Assembly (NCBI GenBank): GCA_947174505.1
Contig: CAMWJF010000007.1
Location: 1 to 64,000 of the forward strand
Source: an uncultured Lachnospiraceae bacterium
GTDB lineage: Bacteria; Bacillota; Clostridia; Lachnospirales; Lachnospiraceae
Direction: 5' to 3'
DNA: 64,000 bases
Position 1 is the stretch's first letter. Every line of letters starts with the position of its first letter. Positions 6,858 to 64,000 of this stretch are shown piece after piece. The notes under the pieces were generated by a model, which did not search any database, was not told the origin of the DNA, and saw only the letters and a list, made by a program, of their open reading frames with translations. The translations under genes and the position numbers were made by a program.

Positions 6858-6950
6858 GTGGAAGAAAATAACGAAAAGGTCGGTAAAATGCTGAAAAATA
6901 TCTATCGCTATTTTATAGACACGGATGACGGGCGGACGCAATGCGCGTGA
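6858..6950 (+). CDS. Possible 30-residue leader peptide upstream of proC
   Basis: A GTG-initiated frame of 30 codons sits in the gap between the methyltransferase and proC, with AGGAGAA three bases before the start. The peptide is charged (begins VEENNEKVGKM) with a short aromatic stretch, NIYRYF. No homology is recognised. It may be a translated leader or chance; the good Shine-Dalgarno is the only support. Confidence 0.2.
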   Translation: MEENNEKVGKMLKNIYRYFIDTDDGRTQCA

Positions 6951-6983
6951 CTTTGCAAAAAATGCTTCGGCATGGAGGAAAAA

Positions 6984-7778
6984 ATGAAAATAGGATTTAT
7001 CGGGCTTGGAAATATGGCGCGGGCCATCATCGGCGGAATGCTGGAGCAGGGGATTGTGTCTGCGGAGGAGATCTGTGGCAGCGCGAAAACACAGAGTACC
7101 CGTGACGCGGTGCGGGAGCAGCTCGGCATTGACGTGAAGGCGTCCAATGCGGCGGTGGCGGAGGAAGCGCAGACATTGATACTGGCGGTGAAGCCGCAGT
7201 TTTTGGAGGGCGTGATCGGAGAGATCTGTGATGCGGTACAGCCGGACACGCTGATCATCAGTATCGCGGCCGGCAAGACGCTGGAGTGGCTAGAGCAGGC
7301 TTTCGGCCGGCGGGTGAAGCTGGTGCGCTGTATGCCGAATACCCCGGCGCTTGTGGGGGAGGGCTGTACGGGCGTCTGCGTAAACGGCGCGGTATCGGAG
7401 GAGGAGATGGCGTACAGTCTCCGGCTGATGGAGAGCTTCGGAAAGGCAAGTCTGGTGGAGGAGCGGCTGATGGATGCGGTGGGAGCAGTGAGCGGTTCCT
7501 CTCCGGCCTATGTGTTCCTTTTCATAGAAGCGATGGCCGATGCGGGCGTAGCCGCCGGTATGCCCCGGGCGCAGGCTTATGAGTTTGCGGCGCAGGCGGT
7601 TTACGGCAGCGCGAAGCTGGTGCTGGAAACGGGGAAGCATCCGGGAGAGCTGAAGGATATGGTGTGTTCCCCGGGAGGCACGACGATAGAGGGCGTGCGG
7701 GTATTAGAGGAGGCGGGCTTCCGCGGTGCGGTGATGGACGCGCTGCTGGCCACGGTGGAGAAATCCGGGAAGCTGTAA
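6984..7778 (+). CDS. proC: Pyrroline-5-carboxylate reductase
   Basis: Reduces 1-pyrroline-5-carboxylate to L-proline with NAD(P)H, the last step of proline synthesis. The protein has about 264 residues. It has an N-terminal Rossmann fold with GFIGLGNMARAIIGG, the central VKPQFL and RCMPNTPALVGEG motifs, and the C-terminal dimer domain with GSSPAYVFLFIEA and SPGGTTIEG, which are the hallmark residues of P5C reductase. An ATG twelve bases earlier would add four residues, but GGAGG at 6974-6978 is correctly spaced for the ATG at 6984. No proA or proB is in the window. It is followed by a 220-base gap with a strong promoter for the next gene. Confidence 0.95.
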   Translation: MKIGFIGLGNMARAIIGGMLEQGIVSAEEICGSAKTQSTRDAVREQLGIDVKASNAAVAEEAQTLILAVKPQFLEGVIGEICDAVQPDTLIISIAAGKTLEWLEQAFGRRVKLVRCMPNTPALVGEGCTGVCVNGAVSEEEMAYSLRLMESFGKASLVEERLMDAVGAVSGSSPAYVFLFIEAMADAGVAAGMPRAQAYEFAAQAVYGSAKLVLETGKHPGELKDMVCSPGGTTIEGVRVLEEAGFRGAVMDALLATVEKSGKL

Positions 7779-11894: not shown

Positions 11895-11910
11895 GAGAAG
11901 GCTGAATCAA

Positions 11911-11966
11911 TTCTCTGATGAGCAAATTATACATCCAAGAATTTGTGGCGCTTCGGATATGGAGGA
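11911..11966 (+). repeat. Three-hairpin leader element, deleted copy
   Basis: The sequence CTCTGATGAGC (loop of hairpin 1), AGAATTTGTG (5' arm of hairpin 2) and CTTCGG..TGGAGG (3' tail) follow in the same order as in the full copy on the minus strand at 40442-40570. The 3' arm of hairpin 2 and all of hairpin 3 are missing. The tail supplies GGAGGA, the ribosome binding site of birA. Confidence 0.65.
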
Positions 11967-11974
11967 AAAGATCC

Positions 11975-12982
11975 ATGAAAACAGACAGATCCGATATTTT
12001 GACATGCCTGCGAAACAGCGAGGATTATGTGTCGGGACAGCAGCTTTGCGACCGTCTCGGGGTTTCCCGCACGGCGGTCTGGAAGGTGATGAAACAGCTA
12101 AAGGAGGAGGGGTATCGGATCGAATCGGTGCCAAGCCGCGGGTATCGTCTGGTGGAGAGTCCGGCGGACGTATATTCGGAGAGTGAGATTGCCAGCAGGC
12201 TTCACACGAAATGGGCGGGACGGCGGCTGATCTATTTCGACTCCACCGGCTCCACGAACCCGGACGCCAAACGTTTTGCGGAGGAGGGCGCGCCGCACGG
12301 CACCACGGTGGTGGCCGACAGGCAGACGGCGGGCAGAGGCCGCAGAGGTAGGGCGTGGGAGTCGCCTGCGGGCAATTCTGTTTATTTTACGATTGTAATC
12401 AGGCCGGCCTTTGTCCCGGATAAGGCGTCCATGATTACGCTGGTGATGGCGCTCTCCGTGGCGGAGGCGATTCACGGGGTGACAGGCCTTGATACGGGCA
12501 TCAAGTGGCCGAATGATATTGTGGTGAACGGGAAAAAGGTGGTCGGCATTCTGACGGAGATGAGCATGACGCCGGAGATGAATGAGATTCAGTTTCTGGT
12601 GGCGGGCGTGGGTGTGAATGTGAACCAGGAGAGCGCGGAGGCATTCCCTGAAGAGCTACGCGGGACAGCCACTTCCCTGAAGATAGAGTCCGGGCGGCAG
12701 ATTGACAGGGCGGCGCTGCTGGCGCGGATTCTGGAGCAGTTTGAGACGGATTATGGAACCTTTGAACAGACCCTTACACTGTCCGCATTAAAGGAACGCT
12801 ATGAGTCCCGGCTGGCTGGCAGGGACGCCGCGGTGCGTGTGCTTGACCCGGCGGGAGAGTACACTGGGATTTCGCGGGGAATCACCGACACAGGAGAACT
12901 GGTCGTGGAGAAGGAAAACGGAGAGAGAGTCCCGGTTTATGCGGGGGAAGTGTCGGTCCGCGGGCTGTACGGGTATATTTAG
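11975..12982 (+). CDS. birA: Biotin protein ligase / biotin operon repressor
   Basis: A 335-residue bifunctional BirA. The N-terminal winged helix (YVSGQQLCDRLGVSRTAVWKVMKQLKEEG) binds DNA. The central ligase domain has GRGRRGRAWESP, the biotinyl-5'-AMP loop, and KWPNDIVVNGKKVVGIL with the catalytic Lys. A C-terminal SH3-like domain ends it. It attaches biotin to carboxylases and, when loaded with biotinyl-AMP, represses biotin genes. GGAGGA at 11961-11966 decides the start at 11975, and the frame upstream of it is part of a dispersed repeat rather than protein. It appears to head a run of genes in the same direction through lysS. Confidence 0.93.
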   Translation: MKTDRSDILTCLRNSEDYVSGQQLCDRLGVSRTAVWKVMKQLKEEGYRIESVPSRGYRLVESPADVYSESEIASRLHTKWAGRRLIYFDSTGSTNPDAKRFAEEGAPHGTTVVADRQTAGRGRRGRAWESPAGNSVYFTIVIRPAFVPDKASMITLVMALSVAEAIHGVTGLDTGIKWPNDIVVNGKKVVGILTEMSMTPEMNEIQFLVAGVGVNVNQESAEAFPEELRGTATSLKIESGRQIDRAALLARILEQFETDYGTFEQTLTLSALKERYESRLAGRDAAVRVLDPAGEYTGISRGITDTGELVVEKENGERVPVYAGEVSVRGLYGYI

Positions 12983-40308: not shown

Positions 40309-40441
40309 GGGCGTATACGGGCTTGGCGTATACGATCCTTCGCAGTGCTGCGCGCTCGAAAAACCTGCGGTTTTCCTCGCTCGCGGGCTTCGCCCTATAC
40401 ATCCGCAATCTGGAAAAATTGTCAGCGAGCTGCCATTTTTC
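40309..40441. repeat. Inverted and direct repeats between pdxK and merR
   Basis: A 10-mer GGCGTATACG occurs twice 16 bases apart near 40312 and 40328. A hairpin AAAACC/GGTTTT and GC-rich half-palindromes follow. No gene is seen. It adjoins the three-hairpin element on its right. Confidence 0.45.
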
Positions 40442-40570
40442 CTCCATTCCGAAGCATTCTATGCTGAGGAACGCGAGCAGAATTTCAGATTCTGCTCTGT
40501 GATCAAGAGAATTTGTGATGCTTCTGCACAAATTCTTGGTCGAATAAATTGCTCATCAGAGAATTTATTC
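40442..40570 (-). repeat. Three-hairpin leader element, full copy on minus strand
   Basis: Read on the minus strand: hairpin 1 GAATAAATT/AATTTATTC (40542-40570, 11-base loop CTCTGATGAGC), hairpin 2 AGAATTTGTG/CACAAATTCT (40508-40536, 9-base loop CAGAAGCAT), hairpin 3 AGCAGAAT/ATTCTGCT (40476-40496, 5-base loop CTGAA), an extra AGCAT/ATGCT, then CTTCGGAATGGAGG. It lies just downstream of the MerR gene. No real gene follows its Shine-Dalgarno-like tail, so this copy is orphaned. Confidence 0.8.
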
Positions 40571-40598
40571 AACCGTCCATCTTACGTCTGTGCACTGC

Positions 40599-50862: not shown

Positions 50863-50937
50863 CGGGGTGTGGCTCAGCTTGGCTAGAGCGCCTGGTTTGG
50901 GACCAGGAGGTCGCAGGTTCGAATCCTGTCACCCCGA
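50863..50937 (+). tRNA. tRNA-Pro (anticodon TGG)
   Basis: Acceptor CGGGGTG/CACCCCG, D stem GCTC/GAGC, anticodon stem CCTGG/CCAGG with loop TTTGGGA, T arm GCAGG-TTCGAAT-CCTGT. No CCA encoded. Confidence 0.97.
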
Positions 50938-50959
50938 CGCAGTTTATCTATAATGACAT

Positions 50960-51030
50960 GCGGGTGTAGTTCAATGGTAGAACACCAGCCTTCCAAGCTG
51001 GATACGTGGGTTCGATTCCCATCACCCGCT
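50960..51030 (+). tRNA. tRNA-Gly (anticodon TCC)
   Basis: Acceptor GCGGGTG/CACCCGC, anticodon stem CCAGC/GCTGG with loop CTTCCAA, T loop TTCGATT. No CCA encoded. Confidence 0.97.
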
Positions 51031-51066
51031 CTCCGTACGGTGTAAGCCTGTGCGGGTGTGCAGTAC

Positions 51067-51140
<74 letters not shown>

Positions 51141-51146
51141 TTGTAT

Positions 51147-51221
51147 GGTGGGTATGGCGCAGTCGGCTAGCGCGCCAGATTGTGGCTCTGGAGGCCGAGG
51201 GTTCGAGTCCCTCTATCCACC
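51147..51221 (+). tRNA. tRNA-His (anticodon GTG)
   Basis: Acceptor GTGGGTA/TATCCAC with an extra 5' G facing a C discriminator, the identity element of tRNA-His. Anticodon stem CCAGA/TCTGG with loop TTGTGGC. Confidence 0.96.
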
Positions 51222-51262
51222 TTTAACATGAGCGTGCGGAGCACTGCCTGGTTTACCAATAA

Positions 51263-51334
51263 TGGGCTATCGCCAAGGGGTAAGGCACAGGACTTTGACT
51301 CCTGCATTCGCTGGTTCAAATCCAGCTAGCCCAG
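51263..51334 (+). tRNA. tRNA-Gln (anticodon TTG)
   Basis: Acceptor TGGGCTA/TAGCCCA, anticodon stem CAGGA/TCCTG with loop CTTTGAC, T loop TTCAAAT. No CCA encoded. Confidence 0.96.
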
Positions 51335-51338
51335 TTAT

Positions 51339-51411
51339 GGACCACTAGCTCAGTCGGTAGAGCACCTGACTTTTAATCAGGTTGTCGGGGGTTCGAATCC
51401 CCCGTGGTTCA
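51339..51411 (+). tRNA. tRNA-Lys (anticodon TTT)
   Basis: Acceptor GGACCAC/GTGGTTC (one wobble), anticodon stem CCTGA/TCAGG with loop CTTTTAA, T arm GGGGG-TTCGAAT-CCCCC. Last tRNA of the cluster. Confidence 0.97.
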
Positions 51412-53122: not shown

Positions 53123-53202
<80 letters not shown>

Positions 53203-53458: not shown

Positions 53459-53487
53459 TTGACTATATTCAACAAAAAGCATATAAT
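53459..53487 (+). promoter_or_regulatory. Promoter of the binding-protein lipoprotein gene
   Basis: TTGACT, 17 bases, TATAAT. TTTGACTATATTCAACAAA across the -35 is a partly inverted sequence that may be a regulator site. Confidence 0.78.
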
Positions 53488-53524
53488 TTCTGGGAAGGAA
53501 AATTATAGTAAGGGAGGAGAAGCA

Positions 53525-54577
53525 ATGTATAAATTACAAAAAGTGATCGGTCTGTCGCTCATGACAGGACTTTTGCTGTCAGGCTGCGGACAGGCAGGCG
53601 ATCCTGAGATTATTATGCCGGATACGCCGATGCAGCCTTCGGCGGCTGTAAGCGGCGGGGCAGCAGCGGAGCCTGTGGCGGCAGCAGAGGAAACGGCGGC
53701 GGAGGAGACACAGGAGGCGCAGCCCTCGGCGGGTACGGGTGAGGCGCATACGGTGTATCTGATTACCATGGATCTGGCGGACAGCTACTGGCAGTCGATT
53801 GATAAGGGCTGTAAGCAGGCGGCGGAGGAGCTGGGAAATATTACATATAAGTGGATCGGGCCGGACACCCACGATGACGCGCTGCAGAGCGCCTGTGTGG
53901 ACCAGGCGGTATCGGAAGGGGCTGAAGCGATTCTGATTGCGGCAAACAGCGCCGAGGGCGTAAATGGCAGTTTACAGAAAGCGGCGGATGCGGGATGTAA
54001 GATTATTTACGTGGACAGTGCGGCAAGCTTTGACTGTGTGACGGCGCTGGCGACCGACAATGAGGCGGCGGGAAAGACGGCTGCGGACAGCATGAAGAAA
54101 GCGCTGGCGGAAAGAGGGATTACGTCCGGTACGATCGGTGTTATGGGTGTGACGCAGGACACGGCTTCCTGTGTGGCGAGGGAAACAGGTTTCCGCGCGG
54201 CCTTTGAGGGCACCGACTTTGTGCTGGCTGATACGGTATATATGATGGATGATGCGGCCAATATCAAGAATGCCGTGACGGCAGGTCAGGGACAGGGATA
54301 TGTGGCGTATTTCGGAACCAATGAGGGTACCTCCGTGGCGGCCGGGGAGGCGGTCAGAGAGTCCGGGCAGGACGATCTGGTTGTGGGATTTGACACGTCA
54401 GACGCCATGCTGGCGCTGATTGCAGACGGTACTGCCTATGCGACCATGCAGCAGAACCCGGAGCGCATGGGACATGACGGCATGGTCATTGCCGTGCAGG
54501 CGCTGGAGGGAACTTATACAGACACTAACACAAAAACGGATACGGGAGTGACGGTCATCACTGCGGATTCCATGTAG
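53525..54577 (+). CDS. Sugar-binding lipoprotein (ribose-binding-protein type)
   Basis: A 350-residue exported substrate-binding protein. The signal peptide ends in a lipobox, LLLSGC near residue 20, so the mature protein is lipid-anchored. A 45-residue Ala/Glu/Pro-rich tether follows, then a type I periplasmic-binding fold (VYLITMDLADSYWQSIDKGCKQAAEELG, ATDNEAAGKTAADSM, GYVAYFGTNEGTSVAAGEAV, VVGFDTSDAMLALI). Ligands of this class are sugars or autoinducer-2-like molecules. No ATPase or permease gene is present. Instead the next gene encodes a chemoreceptor, which suggests sensing rather than uptake. GGGAGGAG sets the start at 53525. Confidence 0.9.
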   Translation: MYKLQKVIGLSLMTGLLLSGCGQAGDPEIIMPDTPMQPSAAVSGGAAAEPVAAAEETAAEETQEAQPSAGTGEAHTVYLITMDLADSYWQSIDKGCKQAAEELGNITYKWIGPDTHDDALQSACVDQAVSEGAEAILIAANSAEGVNGSLQKAADAGCKIIYVDSAASFDCVTALATDNEAAGKTAADSMKKALAERGITSGTIGVMGVTQDTASCVARETGFRAAFEGTDFVLADTVYMMDDAANIKNAVTAGQGQGYVAYFGTNEGTSVAAGEAVRESGQDDLVVGFDTSDAMLALIADGTAYATMQQNPERMGHDGMVIAVQALEGTYTDTNTKTDTGVTVITADSM

Positions 54578-54585
54578 GAGATGTG

Positions 54586-54716
54586 GTGTGAAAAATAATG
54601 CCGATGCATTTATTTTTCACACGCAAATTTGTGCAGGAGCATCACAAATTTGTTTTATGGCAGACGCAAATTTGAGATTTGCGCCGCCTCGTCGCGTGAA
54701 CGCTCCGGAATGGAGA
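54586..54716 (+). repeat. Three-hairpin leader element, full copy
   Basis: Hairpin 1 GTGTGAAAAATAA/TTATTTTTCACAC (54586-54622, 11-base loop), hairpin 2 CAAATTTGTG/CACAAATTTG (54624-54652, 9-base loop CAGGAGCAT), hairpin 3 CGCAAAT/ATTTGCG (54665-54683, 5-base loop TTGAG), then CTCCGGAATGGAG, a small hairpin (CTCC/GGAG) that holds the Shine-Dalgarno of the chemoreceptor gene starting at 54722. Loops match the minus-strand copy at 40442-40570; stems differ in sequence but stay paired. Confidence 0.82.
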
Positions 54717-54721
54717 ACGAT

Positions 54722-56422
54722 ATGAAATTTAAACAGAAAATGTTTACCTTATACTGTGTTCCGATGTTGGTGTACGGCATCCTGCTTTTGGTGATCGGGC
54801 TGATCCAGTTTGAAAACGGCATGTATAAGGAGACAAGGAACAGCTTAAAATCAAATGCGCTGGCGGCGATGAGTCTGTACAACAGCCAGGGCTACGGGGA
54901 TTATGCCCTGAAGTCGGACGGCAATGTCTGGAGAGGCATGAATTTTAACATTTCGCAGGAGACGGGCATTGTGGACGAGCTGAAAGCGCAGACAGGCGTG
55001 GATATCACGTTTTTCTTTGGTGACACGGCTGTCATGACCTCTGTTATGAATGAGGGCGGAAACAGATGGTATGGTATGCGGGCGGGCGCAAATATTACCA
55101 ATTATACGCTGCATCAGGGGGCGCAGCTCTGGTACCGCAATATTGAAATAGACGGGAAAATGTGTCACGCTTATCTGATTCCCATTGTGCAGCCGGGCGA
55201 CGGTACCGTGACGGGCGCAATGATGGCCTCTCTTCCGACAGAGGAATTTGACGGTATTATCAGGCGGTATGTGCTGATCAGCGTTGTGATTGCGTTTGTG
55301 GTGCTTCTGGCTGTAGGCGGCTTTATTTACTGGTATATCGGCGGGCTGACTAGGGTGCTCCACAATGTGAGAGAGGTGCTTTCCAAGGTGTCCAACGGGC
55401 AGTTTGAGGATGCGCGTCTGGAGGAAATCAGGCGGCGGGATGAGTTTGGGGACTTGGCGTCCTGTACGGAGAGACTGCGGCTGAAGATTTATGATATTCT
55501 GGATGACATCCGTCACGGGACGGTGAAGCTGACGGGGGCTGTCGAGAGGCTGAACAGGACGTCCGAAAGTACCACGCAGGCTGCGGTGAGCATGAGCGGC
55601 AGCGTGGCACAGATCGAGGATACAGCCAACCGGCAGCAGAGCGGGACCACGCAGGCCGCGCAGGATGTGGAGGCCACGAAACAGGCGATAGAGGAAATGC
55701 TGGTGCAGATTGAGGGCATCAATCAGATTTCCAGAGACATGGAAGACATGTCGAAGGAGAGCGCGGACATATTGCGGGAGCTGGAGGAGAGCAGCAAAAA
55801 GGCGCAGGATACGGTGCGTGGAATCAGGAATCAGACGGACACCACGAATGAATCGGTCAAACAGATTAAGAGTGTGACAGAGTATATCACCAACATAGCG
55901 GAGGAGACCAATCTTCTGGCGCTTAACGCCAGCATTGAGGCGGCCAGGGCCGGAGACGCGGGCAGGGGATTTGCGGTGGTGGCACAGCAGATTCAGAAGC
56001 TTGCGGAGGAATCCAACCATTCGGCGGCACAGATCGGAGATAATATTAAGGATCTGGTGGAGAAGACGGAAGAAAATCTGGCGGCCATGAATCTGATCGG
56101 TGAGGTACTGAAATCACAGGAAGACAAGGTGACCAGGACGAAGGATATCTTCGGGGAACTGGATCGCAGCATCGGTCTGGTGACGGATAAAGAGAACAAC
56201 ATGCAGCAGAATATCCGTTCCATGAATCAGGCAAAAGATAATATGTCAAACGTGATTGAAGAGCTGGCGCAGGCATCCATGGACAACGTCAGTACCGCGC
56301 AGGTGACGGCGGAGGCCGCGGGGCAGATGCAGGAGGAGATAAAAGGCATCACCGAGCTGAGTGCGGATCTGACAGGACTTGCGGAGAACCTGAATCAGAA
56401 TCTGCAGTCATTCCTATCTTAA
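54722..56422 (+). CDS. Methyl-accepting chemotaxis protein (Cache type)
   Basis: A 566-residue chemoreceptor. Transmembrane helix 1 is near 8-30 and helix 2 near 180-203, with a single Cache-like extracytoplasmic domain between them (about 150 residues, [30 protein letters not shown]). HAMP follows, then the signalling coiled coil with tip [15 protein letters not shown] from residue 397. No CheR-binding pentapeptide. It lies directly downstream of a sugar-binding lipoprotein gene and probably receives that protein's signal. Its leader is the three-hairpin element, whose tail covers the ribosome site. No che genes are adjacent; it would use the array at 24.6-31.4 kb. Confidence 0.92.
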
Positions 56423-63128: not shown

Positions 63129-63159
63129 GAATTGAGATAAAAATAAACCTGATTTTTTC

Positions 63160-63188
63160 AAAAGAGTGGTTTACAAAACCACTCTTTT
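63160..63188 (+). terminator. Perfect inverted repeat overlapping a promoter
   Basis: AAAAGAGTGGTTT pairs with AAACCACTCTTTT across a 3-base loop, between T-rich flanks. It probably ends pfp transcripts; it also contains the -35 of the next promoter. Confidence 0.8.
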
Positions 63189-63219
63189 GTTATATGATGG
63201 TCATGGAAAACGATTTCCA
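63170..63219 (+). promoter_or_regulatory. LacI gene promoter and palindromic operator
   Basis: TTTACA (63170-63175), 17 bases, TATGAT (63193-63198). TGGAAAACGATTTCCA (63204-63219), a near-perfect 16-bp LacI/CcpA-type palindrome, sits at the start point. Its AAACGATTTCC half is found again inverted as GGAATCGTTT about 30 bases on (63250-63259). Confidence 0.75.
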
Positions 63220-63274
63220 GATGGTATTTGCTGACAATCCACTGGTATAGGAATCGTTTCGGAATGGAAGAATC

Positions 63275-64000
63275 ATGGTATCAATCAAAGACGTTGCAAA
63301 GCAGGCGGGTGTGGCGATTTCCACTGTATCCAAGGTGCTGAACAATTATCCGAATGTGAGCGAAGAGACAAAGAAAAAAGTAAATCAGGCGGTGGCGGAA
63401 TTAAATTTTGTGCCCAATTCCGTTGCGGCGGCGCTTTCTTCCAAGCAGTCCGGCAGGGTCGCGCTGCTTCTGAATCTGGGTAATGTGTCGCAGGCGGTGG
63501 ACGAGATCAATATGCAGTATATGTCCGGCACCATAAGCCGGGCGGTGGAGCTGAGCCTGGATGTAATCACGATATTTGACTCCATGCTGAAAAATAAAAG
63601 TCTGGATGAGGTGGTGCGCTATCTGCGTTCCCAGAGTATTACGGGACTTATTATTTTCGGGATGTCGAAGGATGACAGGGTGCTTCAGAAACTGATCGAC
63701 GCGCAGCTTTTTAAGATTGTGACGGTGGACGCGCCTCTTGTGAACGCCTCTTCGTCCTCGGTCTGGATTAATCAGGAGGCGGCGCAGTACGATGTGGCGA
63801 AGAAAACGCTTAAGGAAAATAAGGGAAAGAGCATTCTTTATCTGGCGGGCAAGAAGAACGGCTATGTTTCCGGCGAACGGCTGAAAGGCATACAGCGGCT
63901 GGCGGAGGAAGAGAAGATACCGCTGCTTGTCAGAAACGGGGAATTTTCGGAGCTGCAGGCGAGAAATCTGACGCTGCGGTATGCGAAGAAGAAGGATATC
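63275..64000 (+). CDS. LacI-family regulator, cut by the window end
   Basis: The first 242 codons of a LacI-type repressor, open to the last base. The helix-turn-helix and hinge read MVSIKDVAKQAGVAISTVSKVLNNYPNVSEETKKKVNQAV...FVPNSVAAALSSKQ; the sugar-binding-like domain follows (VALLLNLGN..., SITGLIIFGMSKD, KSILYLAGKKNGYVSGERLKGIQ). The leader ends TTTCGGAATGGAAG, resembling the tail of the three-hairpin elements, and supplies the ribosome site. A 16-bp palindrome at its promoter suggests autoregulation. The controlled pathway lies outside the window. Confidence 0.9.
   Translation, partial: MVSIKDVAKQAGVAISTVSKVLNNYPNVSEETKKKVNQAVAELNFVPNSVAAALSSKQSGRVALLLNLGNVSQAVDEINMQYMSGTISRAVELSLDVITIFDSMLKNKSLDEVVRYLRSQSITGLIIFGMSKDDRVLQKLIDAQLFKIVTVDAPLVNASSSSVWINQEAAQYDVAKKTLKENKGKSILYLAGKKNGYVSGERLKGIQRLAEEEKIPLLVRNGEFSELQARNLTLRYAKKKDI

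Follow-up and report, generated by a model that had tools for sequence, protein, structure and literature searches.

Within the window, by which we mean the whole analysed stretch of 64,000 nucleotides, a structured leader precedes a chemoreceptor (MCP) gene on the plus strand (54722-56422; domain matches to sCache_3_3 and MCPsignal). Three hairpins lie on the same strand within 54586-54688, at the positions claimed for them in the first-pass annotation of this DNA. Hairpin 1 (54586-54622) was delineated from the sequence, from folding against shuffles and from pair analysis in nine and in 95 copies. Folding and pair analysis likewise defined hairpin 2 (54623-54653), which carries the loop CAGGAGCAT and the stem pairs that vary least, and hairpin 3 (54659-54688), which has an outer stem GGC..GCC and an inner stem CGCAAATTT/AGATTTGCG. 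A candidate short hairpin 4, TCGTCGCGTGAACGCTCCGG (54689-54708, plus strand), which alone is no stabler here than its shuffles (z 0.38), stands ahead of the Shine-Dalgarno sequence (SD); the first-pass annotation, correct on the other three, had not noticed it. The plus-strand segment CTCCGGAATGGAG (54703-54715) comprises the right end of the element together with the SD of the MCP gene (GGAG, 54712-54715), and the hairpin over this SD was predicted with a mean probability of 0.89. At the left junction, TAGGAGATGTG (54575-54585, plus strand), the sequence has an SD-like GGAG over the stop codon of the upstream gene (53459-54577), and this GGAG is presumed to be the former SD of the MCP gene. 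The plus strand of 54580-54730 folded better than 199 of 200 shuffles (z -3.4).

A second full copy lies on the minus strand (40446-40574; folding and model match) and folded better than all 200 of its shuffles (z -4.3). Its hairpins 1-3, within 40472-40574, keep the layout of the MCP copy with different stem sequences, and its loops CAGRAGCAT and YTGAR are as first described. It has an SD-like GGAGG at 40441-40445 and no gene behind it at present, its ATG starting a frame of just four codons. The first-pass annotation had counted two copies; both stand, but the count was incomplete, as the plus strand holds further remnants. These are a decayed copy with the tail GCTTCGGCATGGAGG (6876-6986; 24.6 bits, E 1e-4) before proC (6972-7778), another (11897-12029; 20.0 bits, E 0.0014) before a biotin-protein-ligase gene (ATG at 11975, to 12982), and a probable decayed copy with the tail CGTTTCGGAATGGAAG (63153-63278; 20.8 bits, E 9e-4) before a gene that appears LacI-like by eye (from 63275). 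Genes with the same start as proC by eye also carry copies in the genomes G034, G031 and G009 (loci L057, L179 and L193). The proC copies across genomes are either an old shared insertion or the product of a hot spot.

A dispersed and covarying repeat

A blastn search with 54580-54730 against the genome of origin (4.26 Mb, 151 contigs) returned 14 matches on 12 contigs; the leader is therefore a dispersed repeat, with a length of about 130 nt. With a covariance model built from nine full copies (R1), at least 45 matches at E<=1 and at least 31 at E<=0.001 were obtained in the same genome, 150 of 733 first-look candidates having been scored. Among 37 genomes of the genus (own included), 31 had matches at E<=0.001, from 1 to at least 52 per genome, where the high counts are lower bounds as at most 52 candidates were scored per genome; six had none. 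Genomes from outside the genus gave matches in 1 of 24 in the R1 survey. Across the order (E<=1e-4, 10 candidates scored per genome), matches were found in 15 of 295 genomes, belonging to 8 of 129 genera and two families, and in a phylum sample of 398 genomes with 8 candidates scored in each, only the own genome matched. Many of the genomes surveyed are incomplete. A named collection yielded 96 stretches, of which the 80 listed are titled Lachnospiraceae, Clostridiaceae, Eubacteriales and others, nearly all of them MAGs. Viral contigs gave no match to one 21-nt hairpin-2 pattern, and phage and plasmid records gave no blastn match to the MCP copy, used alone as query. A covariance-model search had been proposed in the first-pass annotation; the further copies that it recovered lie mostly before start codons, and their stems covary.

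In a MAFFT alignment of the nine full copies, 19 of 41 predicted pairs carried compensatory changes. A larger set of 95 copies (94 chosen sources, E<=1e-14) had 98.1% of cells paired and double-sided changes in 30 of the 41 pairs; its alignment was fitted to the structure of the model, which favours that structure, and the nine-copy MAFFT alignment agrees with it. The covariation score in the 95 copies was 0.458 versus 0.141 after shuffling, with 0 of 500 shuffles as high, and pairing fell to 39-51% when the partner was shifted by one to three columns. The signal is carried by hairpins 1, 2 and 3. Variation is lowest in the tail and, within hairpin 2, in the inner stem and the loop. From two copies, the first-pass annotation had noted covariation and taken it to imply selection on RNA shape; the double-sided changes and the score support this, and the observation is real and stronger than first stated. 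Two subfamilies are plain, namely A, with hairpin 1 GTGTGAAAAAT..., which includes the MCP copy, and B (GGTTGAATAAA...), which includes the minus-strand copy.

Start codons and Shine-Dalgarno pairing

A start codon with an open reading frame of at least 50 codons, preceded by an SD-like word, was present at the right end of 54 of 66 named-locus copies (the best 68 of 92 matches, less two without 160 nt of downstream DNA) and of 23 of 29 own-genome copies (29 of 30 matches with loci, one partial match being excluded). The same test was passed by 360 of 5000 random positions (7%) and by 2 of 94 antisense ends. It was failed by 12 of the 66 and 6 of the 29 copies, and in some of these another repeat stands behind the copy (L127, L125). 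Beyond the genus, in further genera and one other family, inspection by eye showed an SD-like word and ATG at the end of 17 of the 18 copies that could be read; L341 is the doubtful one. Most copies tested point in the direction of the next gene. The genes downstream of own-genome copies encode or include rimP, gyrA, a deoB-like metalloenzyme, an Lrp-type regulator, glutamate synthase, ribonuclease HII (rnhB), a DegT aminotransferase, an ABC ATPase, an LD-carboxypeptidase, a DUF1540 protein and the MCP. A further downstream gene was identified as dapF by eye. Five of 20 downstream proteins scanned had no Pfam match at E<=1e-5. The downstream genes scanned were seen to be unrelated, with no common theme.

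The hairpin that the first-pass annotation had described as covering the SD does form in the MCP copy, where the SD is predicted to pair with CUCC at a probability of 0.89, but it neither covaries nor dominates elsewhere: none of its four pairs (CTCC/GGAG) showed a double-sided change in the 95 copies, and in folding ensembles the SD was paired with CUYC above a probability of 0.5 in only 20% of them. Pairing of the SD with any partner had a mean probability of 0.65 (median 0.69) over the same copies. The ensembles thus predict an SD that is often partly paired, and since compensatory pairs are absent and CUYC pairing is seldom dominant, no one conserved helix appears to be responsible. These results bear on the idea of a cis-regulatory RNA that controls translation by covering the SD, either as a riboswitch or as an RNA thermometer, both of which the first-pass annotation had put forward. 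A strongly structured repeat in 5' leaders with this degree of SD pairing is what such a reading would predict, but we consider it very improbable: the downstream genes scanned share no function, copy number is patchy within one genus, some copies are not before genes, and degraded copies (L012, L018, L021 and the remnants in the window) keep the SD tail while their hairpins decay, in a sample that is biased because these copies were found through their tails. Against a thermometer in particular stands the want of a conserved SD-covering pairing.

The stretch assigned to candidate hairpin 4 (54689-54708, UCGUCGCGUGAACGCUCCGG; counterpart at 40446-40472 in the minus copy) takes up the GGAAU that was first assigned to the loop of the SD-covering hairpin. 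A possible pairing is CCG-UC-GCG-UAAA-CGC-UC-CGG in subfamily A and GUUCC-UC-AGCAU..AUGCU-UC-GGAAU in subfamily B. When the stretch was folded alone, at least one tail base of GGNAU was paired in 74 of 90 copies. The base opposite N was complementary in 38 of 51 readable copies and not in 13 (84 of 95 rows were entered, 33 of them without a readable partner), and the variants GUUCC/GGAAU, GUGCC/GGCAU and GUACC/GGUAU were all seen. In full-length ensembles, hairpin 4 pairing exceeded 0.5 in only 18% of copies. Compared with shuffles, the isolated hairpin was stabler in B (z -2.7 for the minus copy, and -2.4), while the A consensus gave a z of -0.75. On these folding predictions hairpin 4 is likely in subfamily B and no more than a candidate in subfamily A.

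At the base of hairpin 1 (e.g. window 54588-54590), a TTG, GTG or ATG lies near normal spacing from the left SD in 81 of 95 copies. A conserved leader peptide starting from this codon was considered and found to be unsupported, as the frame is broken in some copies. It was open to hairpin 4 in 40 of the 81 copies, versus 1 and 8 in the other frames, and met a stop after one codon in five copies, the rimP copy among them; the codon-position entropies were 0.80/0.70/0.89. In subfamilies A and B this frame often crosses the element uninterrupted, and there may be local coding in these two subfamilies; in other copies it is broken.

Insertion sites and mobility

Among 58 copies whose left flank is not itself an element tail, 46 had an SD-like word within the 12 nt next to the element; such a word was present in 13.2% of random 12-mers and, further upstream, in 44 of 284 windows. 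The target would therefore be the interval between SD and start codon. Orthologous loci gave both filled and empty versions of such sites. At rimP, the own genome (G000) has a full copy between CAGGAG and GGAG, and G003 has a full copy, G063 an internal-deletion remnant and G025 a tail remnant, while empty sites read CAGGAGgttgttatttgttATG in G034 and CAGGGGGccgttATG in G033 (orthologues matched in 38 of 41 genomes, 30 loci read). At gyrA, G000 has a full copy, G031 and G009 have degenerate ones and G063 keeps a tail remnant; none was seen in the other 26 loci (40 of 41 genomes matched, 30 loci read). Ten further comparisons of orthologous sites gave four filled versus empty pairs (L190/L304, L204/L293-L294, L192/L285-L286 and L210/L276), the clearest being L190 in G006, GGGAAAAGAAGGAAAA-element-GGAGGAAAAAGATGG, versus L304 in G035, GGGAAAAGAAGGAGGAAAAAGATGG. 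The other six were unclean, with diverged intergenic DNA or an orthologue carrying its own copy or remnant; at L303, one of the six, the upstream DNA is unrelated.

The rimP and gyrA loci also bear on whether a repeat that moves as a parasite has been co-opted, its leaders now coordinating a regulon, for instance by way of a hairpin 2-binding protein or sRNA. The many 5' leaders that carry the repeat and the low variation of the hairpin 2 inner stem and loop and of the tail would be consistent with this, but recent spread can also give low variation, and most of the rimP and gyrA orthologues read are without a full copy. We consider such co-option unlikely.

Identical copies with different flanks were found in G031 (L176/L178; L364/L366/L370). 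Identities were 0.927-0.974 within genomes versus 0.905-0.949 between genomes, which is no clear excess and so gives no sign of genome-private bursts. The tail of an older copy was matched by 13 of 36 left flanks in G031, which indicates that the SDs of earlier copies serve as entry points for new ones. The longest word shared by left and right junctions was 5.81 for own pairs versus 5.10 for cross-genome shuffles (73 copies; 0 of 5000 shuffles reached the observed value). By subfamily, the observed sharing was reached in 0 (A) and 191 (B) of 5000 shuffles, and a fixed 8-nt comparison was weak. Within-genome shuffles reached it in 106 (G031), 1128 (G014), 241 (G006) and 121 (G000) of 5000, and for the pooled five-genome set in 3110 of 5000. 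Single loci point both ways: the left side of L204 fits the empty site better than its right side, which favours an SD borne by the element, and L020, L051 and L122 have identical 8 nt on both sides, which favours duplication. Terminal inverted repeats were not found, the longest word common to the two ends being 3.28 nt versus 3.62 nt after shuffling (90 of 95 copies). Like MITEs, the repeat is short, non-coding and multi-copy, and it differs from them in having no terminal inverted repeats.

We conclude, with a probability of roughly 0.85, that the repeat is a small, structured, non-autonomous, mobile interspersed element that inserts between SD and start codon, and not a gene switch. Transposition itself was not observed; mobility is read from empty sites, identical copies and nesting. 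A structured mobile repeat had been among the options of the first-pass annotation, and it is this option that the multiple copies, the covariation, the placement at SDs, the empty sites and the identical copies with different flanks favour. The element would insert into the few bases that separate the SD of a gene from its start codon, and insertion would either duplicate the SD (about 8-9 nt) or bring in the element's own SD at the right end. The host gene would thereby keep a ribosome-binding site at normal spacing, and insertion would for this reason be tolerated, even in front of genes such as gyrA and rimP. The hairpins would be kept by selection for mobility and not for regulating the gene, and may be recognised as single-stranded DNA or RNA by an enzyme supplied in trans. 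After insertion they would decay while the SD tail stays, and any effect on translation or mRNA stability would be a by-product. An element of this kind shows how a genomic parasite could sit at a highly sensitive spot of a gene without silencing it, by leaving a properly spaced SD. It also cautions against reading strong covariation ahead of start codons as proof of a riboswitch, and it poses the question of which enzyme recognises SD sites.

A REP-type element moved by a RAYT/Y1 tyrosine transposase, or an element derived from IS200/IS605, would share with the repeat the hairpins close to its ends, the lack of terminal inverted repeats, the orientation bias and the short SD-like sequence at both junctions. 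Y1_Tnp was detected in 15 of 41 genus genomes, some of them with copies (G003, G005, G015), by a search that also matches 5 of 14 control genomes, but it was found neither in the own genome nor in the copy-rich G031, G009, G006, G014, G029 and G002 (G009 and G014 are about 80% complete, and absence there is not firm). We therefore judge this origin to be quite unlikely. No mobiliser emerged from this search, which covered Y1 transposases in the own genome and the genus genomes. Two further ideas were dropped: a hammerhead-like CTGATGAG in loop 1, for which there was no Rfam ribozyme match in the window or the loci scanned, and an integron attC site, since the copies stand singly before housekeeping genes.

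Relatives and similar repeats

The first-pass annotation knew of no named RNA with this layout. This holds at the Rfam gathering cut-off, which only tRNAs pass in the window, and has to be amended below it, where TD-2 (RF03162, clan CL00124) matches on the antisense strand. The tRNA genes of the window comprise a cluster of six at 50863-51411 and one more at 53123-53202. We take TD-2 to be the Treponema denticola motif of 2017, reportedly from the work of Weinberg in that year, and TD-1 to be its clan mate; we know of no account of a role for TD-2. In cmscan runs, TD-2 was matched below cut-off on the antisense strand in 1 of 4, 1 of 7 and 1 of 12 loci, with scores of 39.6 bits in L020 (twice) and 34.1 bits in L033. 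At E<=0.1 the TD-2 model had matches in 22 of the 41 genus genomes and in none of the 14 controls; its gathering score of 48.7 was reached in none of the 41, the best match having 43.7 bits. In the reverse direction, a broader model of the element (R2) found 9 of 10 TD-2 loci fetched, five with 121-134 bits and four weakly with 21-31 bits, the best match always being on the opposite strand. A few weaker same-strand TD-2 matches overlap the element, and the main matches are antisense. Read on its reverse strand, TD-2 has the same features as the element in the same order, i.e. a long TGAAAA hairpin, a CGAGTTT..AAACTCG hairpin and a short hairpin; it differs in that its Rfam strand is the opposite one and its model stops before the SD tail. 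Given the shared hairpin order and the cross-matches in the genus and with R2, TD-2 is probably a distant relative of the element that was filed on the other strand, and the element thus offers a reading of this Rfam motif. TD-2-like two-hairpin elements (TGAAAAATC..GATTTTTCA and CGAGTTTG..CAAAC) occur at L321, L326, L327 and L329 in G036, G008, G011 and G035. No SD tail was seen in the stretches read at these four loci, and they may therefore be a sister group without SD targeting.

More speculatively, the repeat could stand for a new class of mobile element, which would have the interval between SD and start codon as its target, leave a working SD at its right end and possess neither terminal inverted repeats nor a known transposase. 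It would have moved either via an RNA that is converted back to DNA at SD-like targets or as folded single-stranded DNA, and TD-2 (with TD-1) would belong to the same class. The sense orientation, the hairpin anatomy and the left and right SDs would fit movement by either route; we offer this class as a tentative and somewhat doubtful proposal. A search of a limited literature collection found no description of an SD-targeting repeat.

Among known repeats, the pneumococcal BOX, RUP and SPRITE are, according to the part of the source available to us, short, multi-copy, folded and probably mobile, as the element is, and some are co-transcribed with genes (PMC3049150). BOX and RUP, unlike the element, are described there as having terminal inverted repeats and target-site duplications, and the available part of the description mentions no insertion between SD and start codon (PMC3049150). 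In the accessible parts of the Bacillus cereus literature, the repeats bcr1-bcr18 measure 100-400 bp, with an average of 39 copies of bcr1 per strain; bcr1-3 are called MITE-like and are often in UTRs, and bcr10 and bcr18 have a conserved RNA structure (PMC6542083, PMC3446304). Their mobility is tied there to TTTAT motifs, whereas the element is tied to SD sites (PMC6542083, PMC3446304). By analogy, we regard the element as the same kind of repeat as BOX/RUP and bcr, from which it would differ in its insertion site, its right-end SD and its lack of inverted repeats.

A second dispersed three-hairpin family follows the same plan, with GATTGAAAATTAAAATTTTCAATC, CGAGATTTGTG..CACAAACTCG and a tail GCGCAGAAATGGAG before a start codon. 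It was found in G031, G009, G034, G003, G002 and G015, with dozens of matches in G031 and G009 together. Its loci include contig C21 of G031 (L182/L125) and L309-L315, and one subfamily B copy of the first family (L051/L176) lies directly behind a second-family SD.
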